Source: Halovenus aranensis (GTDB lineage: Archaea; Halobacteriota; Halobacteria; Halobacteriales; Haloarculaceae). Taken from it: 64,000 nt of DNA. The position numbers and the translations under genes are program-made. Under the pieces are notes generated by a model that saw nothing but the letters and a program-made list of their open reading frames with translations, made no database searches and was not told where the DNA came from. Every line of letters starts with the position of its first letter. The stretch's first letter is position 1. Shown piece after piece: positions 6,303-59,127 of this stretch. Location of the stretch: positions 62,001 through 126,000 of the forward strand of contig NZ_FNFC01000001.1 of assembly GCF_900100385.1 (NCBI RefSeq), in the 5' to 3' direction.

Positions 6303-6387
6303 GCCGAGGTAGCCTAGCCCGGCCAAGGCGCCTGCTTCGAGAGCAGGTCTCCGTAAGGACTCGTGAGTTCAAATCTCACCCTCGGCG
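6303..6387 (+). tRNA. tRNA-Ser (anticodon CGA)
   Basis: The acceptor strand GCCGAGG (6303-6309) pairs with CCTCGGC (6380-6386), followed by discriminator G 6387. The anticodon arm CCTGC-TTCGAGA-GCAGG gives anticodon CGA, which reads UCG (Ser). A long variable arm and the T arm GTGAG-TTCAAAT-CTCAC follow. No CCA is encoded and there is no intron. A TATA-like AATAAAC lies near 6270. The 3' part is copied twice downstream (see 6427-6501). Confidence 0.96.
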
Positions 6388-6426
6388 CTTCTCCGTTCGA
6401 ACGGACGTGAGAACGGTGAGCAACGC

Positions 6427-6501
6427 GTGAGATCTGAATGAGAGCAGACGCGCGAAACGAAGTGAGCACGTCTTCGCGTAGTTCAAATCTCACCCTCGGC
6501 G
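6427..6501 (+). repeat. Inverted plus direct copy of the tRNA-Ser 3' half
   Basis: The last 21 bases of the tRNA (GTTCAAATCTCACCCTCGGCG, 6367-6387) would exceed the quoting limit in full, so only ends are given: they recur exactly at 6481-6501, starting GTTCAAATCTCAC and ending CTCGGCG, and are followed by TTTT. Between the two direct copies is an inverted copy GTGAGATCTGAA (6427-6438), with one mismatch to the complement of TTCAAATCTCAC. Inside the inverted/direct pair a smaller stem CGCGAA/TTCGCG can form. The same layout follows tRNA-Cys. Confidence 0.85.
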
Positions 6502-12607: not shown

Positions 12608-12684
12608 GCCAGGGTGGCAGAGTCTGGCCCAACGCATCCGCCTGCAGAGCGGAACCCCCGCCGGTTCAAATCCGGCCCCTGGCT
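12608..12684 (+). tRNA. tRNA-Cys (anticodon GCA)
   Basis: Acceptor GCCAGGG (12608-12614) pairs with CCCTGGC (12677-12683), discriminator T 12684. The anticodon arm TCCGC-CTGCAGA-GCGGA gives GCA (Cys). The T arm is CCGG-TTCAAAT-CCGG. No CCA, no intron. A promoter-like GGGCTTAAG lies about 30 bases upstream (12572-12580). The 3' half is copied in inverted and direct form downstream. Confidence 0.96.
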
Positions 12685-12721
12685 CTTTTGTCCGAACAAA
12701 CGTGAGGGCAAAGAGCCGATA

Positions 12722-12780
12722 GGCCGGATTCGAAGTAGACCACGAGCGACGTGGGCGTAGTTCAAATCCGGCCCCTGGCT
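12722..12780 (+). repeat. Inverted plus direct copy of the tRNA-Cys 3' half
   Basis: Bases 12664-12684 of the tRNA (starting GTTCAAATCC, ending CCTGGCT) recur exactly at 12760-12780, followed by TTTTT. Between them, GGCCGGATTCGAA (12722-12734) is an inverted copy with one mismatch to the complement of TTCAAATCCGGCC. An AAAGAGCC (12710-12717) further extends the inverted match to the bases just after the tRNA (GGCTCTTT, 12681-12688). The loop of the inverted/direct pair holds a small stem CCAC/GTGG. Same plan as after tRNA-Ser. Confidence 0.85.
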
Positions 12781-12784
12781 TTTT

Positions 12785-13091
12785 CTATTCGGCCCCGTTT
12801 CGGTTGCCCAGACGCTGGCCCCTCCGTGTGACCGTTGAGACTGCGTTCGACTGATACGATGCTTCGCGTCGTCGACCGGACCGAATTATTTATGTTAGAG
12901 TGACAATTACGTCTGAATCGCCGCTGTCGCCGTGAGTCTGCCAGCAGTGCTGTGTCAGCCGGAACTACGCCCCGTCTGTCGGTTCCGAGTGCTATATATC
13001 GGTATAGCTAGCAACAGATACGTCAGTGACCTCTTATTAATAAATACAAAAAATATAAAACAAAATACCCTCCCTGCCGTTGGTTTCTCCC
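12785..13091 (+). promoter_or_regulatory. phnD upstream region with TATA box and dyad
   Basis: A 307-base stretch without a gene. It holds GCTATA-N6-TATAGC (12991-13008), an 18-bp dyad of operator type; the palindrome TTATTAATAA (13033-13042 area); and a long A/T run with a TATA-like AATATAAAA about 30 bases before the GTG at 13092. An upstream AATTATTTATG (about 12884-12894) is a second promoter-like patch. Together they suggest controlled, leaderless transcription of the phosphonate transporter, plausibly in response to phosphate, though no known Pho motif is assigned. Confidence 0.4.
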
Positions 13092-58000: not shown

Positions 58001-58063
58001 ATGACGGACCGGACTCAGGTCGTCGCGTACATCTGTCGGCACTCATCCTGTAGCGACGACTGA
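58001..58063 (+). CDS. Possible 20-residue micro-protein
   Basis: ATG 58001 is preceded by a GGAGG five bases away and a TTTTTA box about 30 bases upstream, and opens MTDRTQVVAYICRHSSCSDD, ending at TGA 58063. The Cys/His-containing core (YICRHSSC) could bind a metal. No homologue is known to me, and so short a frame may be chance. It lies in the gene-poor stretch between tRNA-Ile and the second MITE. Confidence 0.25.
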   Translation: MTDRTQVVAYICRHSSCSDD

Positions 58064-58142
58064 CCCAATCACGGGACGAAATCGCCACTCTGGAGGGGGC
58101 ACATCCGCGTAACGTGACGGCAAAAAGAAGCAGTGGCACTCA

Positions 58143-58251
58143 TAGTGATTATTGCGGTAATTTTTGTGACCACGTTACAGGAATCGTCGTGTCACATCCT
58201 GTGAACCCCGTCTGCTGTTACCACGGCGGTAACGACTCGCAATAATCACTA
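58143..58251. mobile_element. MITE, copy B (109 bp)
   Basis: Same element as at 44322, in the opposite orientation. Perfect 14-bp terminal inverted repeats TAGTGATTATTGCG / CGCAATAATCACTA. TCA flanks at 58140-58142 and 58252-58254. It differs from copy A by a 4-bp GTGG insertion (111 against 107 bases when counted with one flanking base on each side) and two substitutions, showing recent common origin. The right TCA is the complement of the TGA stop of the ABC-2 permease gene. Confidence 0.88.
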
Positions 58252-59127
58252 TCAATCGGCCTTCGAACTACTGGCCCGTGAGAGCAACGCGATTGTCGTG
58301 GCACCGAAGACGATGTTGAGCGCGATAAGCACGGCCAGCGCAGGAGCAAGTGTGTCGTAGATGCCGCCGAATGCGGAGATCTCAAGGACGGTCATCACGT
58401 CGCGGTCCAGCACGAGCGCGCGGACCGCGTCGACCGCGTAGGTCACCGGATTGAGTTTGGCGATTATCTGTGTGGTCCCCGACAGCGAGGAGACGGGCAG
58501 GAACGCCGAGGAGATGAAAAGCAACGGGAACAGCAAGGCGTACGCGGCCGCGTCGAGCGCCTCCTGGTCCCGGGTCACGAGAGCAAGAATATTCGAGAGC
58601 GACATGTACCACGTCCCGAACAGGAGACAGACGAAGACGATGCCAACTACGCCGGGGAGCCCGGTCTCGATGCGCCCGCCAATAGCCAGGGCGAGGCCAA
58701 GGACGACCAGCACCTGGAGGACGATGCGAAGGAGTTCGGCGGCGGCCTTGCCGGCGAAGACGGCGGTCCAACTCATCGGTGTGACGACGACCTTCTCGAA
58801 CATGCCGGTCTGGAGGTCCTCGACGAGACCAATCCCCGAAGAGACCGAAGAGGCCATCGACACCTGAACCAAGACGGCAGGCACGAGGAAGGACACGTAC
58901 CCGACATCCCCGAAACCGCTCTGTTCGAGGGCGAGTGCGCCGGCCTCGCCGAAGACTGCAGTGAACATCAACAGCGAGAGAACGGCCATGACGACATCGA
59001 GGAAGACGGGGGTCGGGTTCCGAATTGCCTTGCGGTTCCAGCGTTTGAAGTTCACCCAGATGTCTCCGACCACGCCGTTGCCGGACGGCACACGCGAGGA
59101 TTCGGAGCCGAAGTCGGGCGTACTCAC
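58252..59127 (-). CDS. ABC-2 type permease (DrrB-like)
   Basis: 291 residues. Six hydrophobic helices in ABC-2 order: VFLDVVMAVLSLLMFTAVFGEAGA, FLVPAVLVQVSMASSVSSGIGLVEDLQTGMFEKVVVTPMSWTAVFAGKAAAELLRIVLQVLVVLG, then LFGTWYMSLSNILALVTRDQEALDAAAYALLFPLLFISSAFLPVSSLSG and LAPALAVLIALNIVFGATTIALL. The Glu-Asp-Leu-Gln coupling helix and FISSAFLP are typical of DrrB/NodJ exporters. It pumps an unknown drug, lipid or polysaccharide. Its start overlaps the ATPase stop by four bases (59124-59127), and its stop codon touches MITE copy B. Confidence 0.92.
   Translation of the reverse strand: MSTPDFGSESSRVPSGNGVVGDIWVNFKRWNRKAIRNPTPVFLDVVMAVLSLLMFTAVFGEAGALALEQSGFGDVGYVSFLVPAVLVQVSMASSVSSGIGLVEDLQTGMFEKVVVTPMSWTAVFAGKAAAELLRIVLQVLVVLGLALAIGGRIETGLPGVVGIVFVCLLFGTWYMSLSNILALVTRDQEALDAAAYALLFPLLFISSAFLPVSSLSGTTQIIAKLNPVTYAVDAVRALVLDRDVMTVLEISAFGGIYDTLAPALAVLIALNIVFGATTIALLSRASSSKAD

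Follow-up and report, generated by a model that had tools for sequence, protein, structure and literature searches.

Tail-copying hairpin units behind haloarchaeal tRNA genes: a family of possible non-autonomous mobile cassettes

The segment behind the tRNA-Cys gene in the window, by which we mean the whole 64,000-nucleotide stretch of Halovenus aranensis DNA that was analysed, is one unit of a haloarchaeal cassette family. The existence of a pervasive, ORF-free and tRNA-specific family of movable hairpin units is well supported by the comparisons below, and the family is apparently undescribed so far; we found no description of such units in the open literature, subscription journals lying outside the search. 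Each unit runs from the tRNA tail, T, through a first hairpin, an inverted copy of the T-loop, T', and a second hairpin to a further copy of T, where T comprises tRNA positions 52-73 and T' is the complement of positions 54-63/64. The units contain no ORF, are mostly about 90-145 bp long, often have a first hairpin that opens with a T-run, and commonly stand in tandem arrays. Within the window this order is seen behind two tRNA genes, as follows.

12608..12684, + strand: tRNA-Cys(GCA), called by ARAGORN and Rfam
12664..12684, + strand: tail T of tRNA-Cys, positions 53-73, anchored on GTTCAAATC
12685..12712, + strand: hairpin 1 of the Cys unit, TTTTGTCC-GA-AC..GT-GA-GGGCAAA, with tandem G.A
12722..12734, + strand: T' of the Cys unit, inverted copy of tRNA positions 54-66, GGCCGGATTCGAA, position 57 mismatched
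12735..12759, + strand: hairpin 2 of the Cys unit, CCACG-AGCGA-CGTGG, ending in GCGTA
12760..12780, + strand: direct copy of the tRNA-Cys tail, 21/21, followed by a T-run
6303..6387, + strand: tRNA-Ser(CGA), with its tail T at 6367-6387
6388..6416, + strand: hairpin 1 of the Ser unit, CCGTTC-GA-AC..GT-GA-GAACGG
6427..6438, + strand: T' of the Ser unit, GTGAGATCTGAA
6439..6480, + strand: hairpin 2 of the Ser unit, ending in GCGTA
6481..6501, + strand: direct copy of the tRNA-Ser tail

The 21-base repeat reported in the first-pass annotation of this DNA is exact, with GTTCAAATCCGGCCCCTGGCT at 12664-12684 recurring 96 bases further on at 12760-12780 and followed there by TTTT, and the reported inverted copy at 12722-12734 is complementary to the tRNA at 12 of 13 bases, the mismatch falling at tRNA position 57. 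The layout said to be common to both genes is indeed common, as the Ser-CGA locus has tail, inverted copy and direct copy in the same order at a spacing of 114, and tRNA-Ile lacks the pattern, as had been stated. Hairpin 1 of the Cys unit opens with the T-run that follows the tRNA, and a hairpin resembling its hairpin 2 was found at a tRNA-Met of another genus (L073). Two of the annotated details are real in the window yet do not extend to the family: GCGTAG does precede both window copies but is one among several hairpin-2 endings, and AAAGAGCC (12710-12717) is complementary to the tRNA end and T-run as claimed, yet in 225 distinct units such complementarity to the acceptor stem is no better for the unit's own tRNA than for other tRNAs. 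The acceptor part is thus not tRNA-specific, and the AAAGAGCC match is either incidental or limited to some units. No Rfam family fitting the units was found in the window (gathering thresholds) or at seven unit-bearing loci (E<=1).

The downstream regions of the tRNA genes of the same genome (G000, 3.29 Mb, the window lying on its contig 22) show that the pattern extends beyond two tRNAs. With 49 Rfam matches as the tRNA set and Ser-CGA added from the window, a tail copy of at least 19/21 stands at 8/49 tRNAs, about 75-130 nt downstream of Ala-GGC, Arg-CCG, Arg-GCG, Cys, Leu-TAG, Val-TAC, Val-CAC and Ser-CGA. Weaker copies are found at Arg-CCT, Ser-TGA and Met, and apparent unit remnants at Leu-TAA and Ser-GGA. 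When a tRNA end is compared with the region behind another tRNA, at least 17/21 is reached in 18 of 2030 pairings, and no tRNA of this genome has a tail copy in its own upstream 100 nt. Chance as the origin of the copies is ruled out by these mis-paired and upstream controls together with the reversed-pattern control described below.

The boundaries of the copied block are clear-cut on either side. Across 259 tRNAs and 256 units identity to the tRNA is 0.24 at position 51 but 0.90 at position 52, and at the right edge it falls from 0.89 at position 73 to 0.57 at position 74. The inverted copy was located through its T-loop octamer (54-61), beyond which it complements position 62 in 84% of cases, position 63 in 71% and position 64 in 47%, against 41% and 25% at the latter two positions for other tRNAs with the same octamer; past position 64 complementarity is about that expected by chance. 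At position 57 the T:T' pairs are A:T in 130 cases, G:C in 50, A:C in 18 and G:T in 3. Where an identical hairpin 2 stands on different isoacceptors, T' complements position 57 of its own tRNA in 20/20 cases and position 63 in 18/20, and since it does so despite the identical neighbouring hairpin, T' has been adapted to its host tRNA. In units inspected by eye, the start of hairpin 1 and the end of hairpin 2 are not inverted repeats of each other.

That the units are gained, lost and moved emerges from sequence comparison of relatives. Between the close relatives G022 and G119, for which 41 orthologous tRNAs were compared, clean pairs of occupied and empty sites are found at Arg-CCT (an 85-nt core plus a tail copy, flank 96% identical), Leu-TAA (flank 94%) and Lys-CTT (flank 95%), with further unit differences at Arg-CCG, Ser-TGA, Gln and Met; a flank identity of 98% is recorded for this sister pair, yet their units differ in presence. 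What occupied sites have beyond the empty ones is hairpin 1, T' and hairpin 2 plus a further duplicate of tRNA positions 52-73, so that the tRNA stays whole, and the earlier statement that the sequence is copied from the tRNA is well supported by this difference. Recombination between the 22-bp direct repeats would leave the same empty site, so that single events cannot all be called gains. Nevertheless, acquisition is required by the presence of different units at one point and by unit identity far above that of the flank. At Arg-CCT six species of one genus are free of units and in others that very point is occupied by differing units; at tRNA-Gln one locus (L272) has a single old unit, and two others (L275 and L278) each have a different extra unit adjoining the tRNA, the old unit and flank being nearly the same in all three; and in the pair G055/G373 unit identity is 98.8% against 80% for the flank.

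The arrays are polarised. Among 77 arrays with at least two copies, the copy nearest the tRNA is the closer match to it in 44, the last copy in 5, and the two are equal in 28, a pattern consistent with units being added beside the tRNA and decaying at the distal end. The first-pass annotation had suggested that the copies are kept equal to the tRNA and had named free drift of the copies as the observation that would speak against this. For the direct copies the suggestion fails, because their decay with distance shows that their equality with the tRNA does not last and speaks against long-term selection to preserve it, but for the inverted T-loop copy it stands, as this tracks the host tRNA at the variable positions 57, 62 and 63 and its match is maintained or remade.

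Furthermore, the two hairpins behave as separate modules, and the exchanged pieces are bounded by the edge of the T-loop. At Val-TAC and Leu-TAG, G022 and G119 have hairpin 1 and T' in common and a different hairpin 2. In 11 of 15 pairs that agree in hairpin 1 and T' but not in hairpin 2, divergence begins 0-1 nt from the T' end, a breakpoint that marks a module boundary but cannot place a crossover, because the shared sequence simply stops there. One hairpin-2 type is also combined with various first hairpins, in most cases on different tRNAs. The most similar whole cores seen on clearly different tRNAs reach about 87%, short of near identity, and jumps between tRNAs are therefore rare or old. 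Frequent inversion of hairpins, as in a shufflon, was considered and rejected, since the stems rarely have the reversed C.T mismatches; one possible inverted hairpin was seen (L273). A second kind of repeat, in which acceptor-end palindromes CGGCCGTGGCG ... TCCCGCCACGCCCG surround another hairpin and the T-loop box is absent, stands behind tRNA-Arg(CCT) at L422-L435.

The units are widespread within one order. Searched as an inverted and a direct T-loop box separated by 15-45 nt, the T'-hairpin-T pattern occurs in 112 of 116 genomes of the taxonomic family, with the reversed-pattern control near zero, and in 42 of 43 Halobacteriales genomes from a phylum-wide draw, with up to about 30 matches per genome. 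In the remaining 204 genomes drawn from the phylum, one or two stray matches occur in 40 and control matches in 13; at 14 inspected loci of stray matches outside Halobacteriales there was no tRNA. One hairpin-2 type spans many genera, including Halorubrum, Natrinema, Haloarcula, Haloferax, Natrialba and Halobellus, and all 78 of its testable matches, meaning those unbroken by the end of a contig, have a tRNA at most 400 nt upstream, with 29 isoacceptors represented. The pooled set holds 339 units behind 35 isoacceptors; it is partly pattern-selected, and the surveys rest on individual loci, part of them chosen by pattern. No DNA match to the units was found in plasmid and phage collections. 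Two patterns gave one match among viral contigs (L150, 13744-14100), which is probably a host or provirus flank; that contig also has a complete tRNA-Glu, then the unit, then an apparent decayed second unit. Dense clusters of many tRNAs, as on viruses or plasmids, were seen in G000 on contig 50 (L045) and in G022 on contig 27 at 216000-222500 (L421).

The conventional integrative elements of these genomes are distinct from the units. Archaeal integrases usually target tRNA tails (PMC8371274), and behind tRNAs occupied by ordinary integrase elements there stands a different motif, the att is another one and no T'-hairpin-T unit adjoins, on which grounds ordinary integrases were rejected as the source of the units. 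Of the PF00589 loci in six genomes one has a unit nearby, and this is an ordinary tRNA element whose neighbourhood with the unit looks coincidental. In G178 (L317 2400-2700, G178:C1 about 1221319) an integrase gene adjoins a short tRNA-Arg tail repeat, about positions 61-73, which is followed directly by an older hairpin unit; the full tRNA of the element was not reached, and the element has apparently inserted in front of the older unit. Among the integrase loci examined no recombinase is linked to the units. Full-size integrase elements between tail copies were likewise sought and rejected: over 322 tRNAs, five tail copies lie more than 450 nt downstream, at four loci where no recognisable integrase stands between the copies, and these are composite arrays, tandem tRNAs or rearrangements. 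The arrays start at tRNA genes, with no integron integrase or attI platform beside them.

Other repeats were met near tRNA genes. Integrase elements at tRNA-Glu, -Gly and -Leu (L304, L309, L310, L314, L320 and L327) share, within 200 nt downstream of the tRNA, a motif that closely resembles GTCTTGCGATT, in variant form at some, and may be an arm site for the integrase. Downstream of tRNA-Ile in the window, perfect 15-bp inverted repeats ATAGTGATTATTGCG / CGCAATAATCACTAT stand 81 nt apart at 58142-58252 in an apparent MITE about 110 bp long. Behind the same tRNA, at 58001-58063, lies a 20-codon reading frame, MTDRTQVVAYICRHSSCSDD, which recurs nearly unchanged behind tRNA-Val(GAC) in L021; it is a repeated mini-gene or a tRNA-linked repeat element.

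One strand of the unit seems to matter as a single strand, as follows from its mismatches and its folding. On the coding strand, mismatches in the hairpin stems are G.A in 206 cases against C.T in 19, the G.A being mostly tandem, and of the two strands the coding one gives the better fold (z -4.2, complement -2.9; 73/90). The hairpins are kept as structure, their sequences being diverse. The G.T:A.C ratios of the stems are 17:21, 12:10 and 58:88, against 118:0 in the tRNA stems of the same genomes; G.T is thus not preferred over A.C, unlike in RNA helices under selection, and this favours folded single-stranded DNA rather than a selected RNA, though weak RNA selection may act as well.

We propose a model in which the units are non-autonomous mobile cassettes at tRNA 3' ends, moved by a recombinase that acts in trans on a folded T'/T site, and we consider it about evenly balanced whether this is how they move. 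The cassette would insert at the tRNA tail and regenerate that tail. For this, the coding strand may fold as single-stranded DNA in which T' pairs with T, and this pairing would present the T-loop half-site of the tRNA as a duplex, at the edge of which a site-specific recombinase acting in trans could exchange strands, much as integron integrases act on folded attC. The T-run that starts many first hairpins may replace the displaced terminator of the tRNA. Against the model count the failure of the integrase loci to tie a recombinase to the units, the empty sites that repeat-mediated loss would equally leave, and the limited similarity of whole cores on clearly different tRNAs; nor was any intermediate, circular or single-stranded, observed. 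The main rival is homologous recombination alone, which we consider unlikely: without a dedicated recombinase, homologous and microhomology recombination and gene conversion would spread the units between species and arrays, the homology arms being the tRNA gene (about 75 bp), the 22-bp tail copies and, for hairpin 2, the B-box inverted pair (8-10 bp). Such exchange agrees with polymorphic units being mostly common to the same tRNA of different species, with the hairpin-2 types common to different tRNAs being flanked on both sides by the universal B-box, with the shared segment stopping 8-10 nt to the left of where the octamer ends (467 of 509 pairs), and with the repeat-mediated deletion documented in haloarchaea (PMC3119063). 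It leaves unexplained, however, why the units are located at tRNAs only, why T' matches the host tRNA, why tandem G.A is found on the coding strand, and how the units first arrived at 35 isoacceptors with matching tails.

Two further readings are less likely than either. The units might be RNA elements, structured 3' trailers of the pre-tRNA in which the hairpin of T' and tail copy controls termination, processing or tRNA folding, and the constant tRNA orientation directly downstream of the gene, the better folding of the coding strand with its strand-specific tandem G.A, and the coincidence of the right edge of the copied block with the tRNA 3' processing point would all suit such a role. We nonetheless think it improbable, given the stem ratios above, the orthologous tRNAs of close relatives that have no units, the T-run after the tRNA that often precedes the unit, and the absence of an Rfam match. 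Least probable of all, to our mind, is that the units are scars, att remnants of conventional proviruses or plasmids left at tRNA 3' ends after excision or internal deletion. Here the usual integrase target and the 22-nt tRNA duplication at a Haloquadratum provirus (PMC3119063) are set against the differing tRNA-proximal sequence of integrase elements at tRNAs, which have no unit beside them, against the one element whose short att stands in front of an older unit, and against the two hairpins and T' that recur in every unit whatever the tRNA.

If the cassette model is correct, a whole archaeal order would have an unnoticed mobile system that docks harmlessly at tRNAs, its most conserved genes, and archaea would possess a natural system of folded-strand recombination. 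This would explain many strain differences beside tRNA genes and would offer a marker of recent DNA exchange. Even under plain homologous recombination, an inverted copy that tracks its target across dozens of tRNAs needs a mechanism. More tentatively, and in our view rather less likely than not, the system may be an archaeal counterpart of the integron, in which tRNA genes would serve as the platforms and the T-loop as the attachment site, a cellular recombinase would capture, stack and swap folded hairpin cassettes, and the target-matched inverted half-site would allow nearly all tRNAs to be served.

The likeness to integron cassettes lies in the small size of the units, each ending in a half-palindromic site, in a hairpin that may fold as a single strand and whose structure is conserved over its sequence, in the tandem array apparently growing from one fixed end, and in cassette exchange. 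The units differ in having no ORF, integron integrase or attI platform, and in that the array is anchored at a tRNA gene, of which the site is a copy, and the T-loop sites alternate in orientation. With proviruses and integrative elements at tRNA 3' ends (SNJ2-type and other tyrosine integrases) they share a direct repeat of the tail that restores the tRNA, but they are about 100 bp long, lack integrase and cargo, contain an inverted copy and two hairpins, and stand behind most isoacceptors; their repeat is 52-73, whereas SNJ2-type proviruses use the acceptor end, with att sites of 13-14 bp (PMC8371274, PMC7911831). Haloarchaeal MITEs, SMRs and PATEs are likewise short, non-coding and mobile, and PATEs and SMRs can have a length of about 50-110 bp and contain palindromes (PMC3119063). 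MITEs share target-site duplication with the units, which however lack terminal inverted repeats tied to a transposase, and PATEs and SMRs make no target duplication (PMC3119063), in contrast to the 22-bp duplication, strict tRNA-tail target and target-matched inverted copy of the units. The palindromes of REP/BIME and the hairpins of IS200/IS605 are also strand-specific and form alternating arrays, but are neither targeted to tRNAs nor copies of their target. Finally, CRISPR arrays show the same polarised growth beside a fixed end with a short repeat duplicated at each gain, but the inserts of the tRNA units are related hairpin families bounded by tRNA copies rather than foreign spacers.
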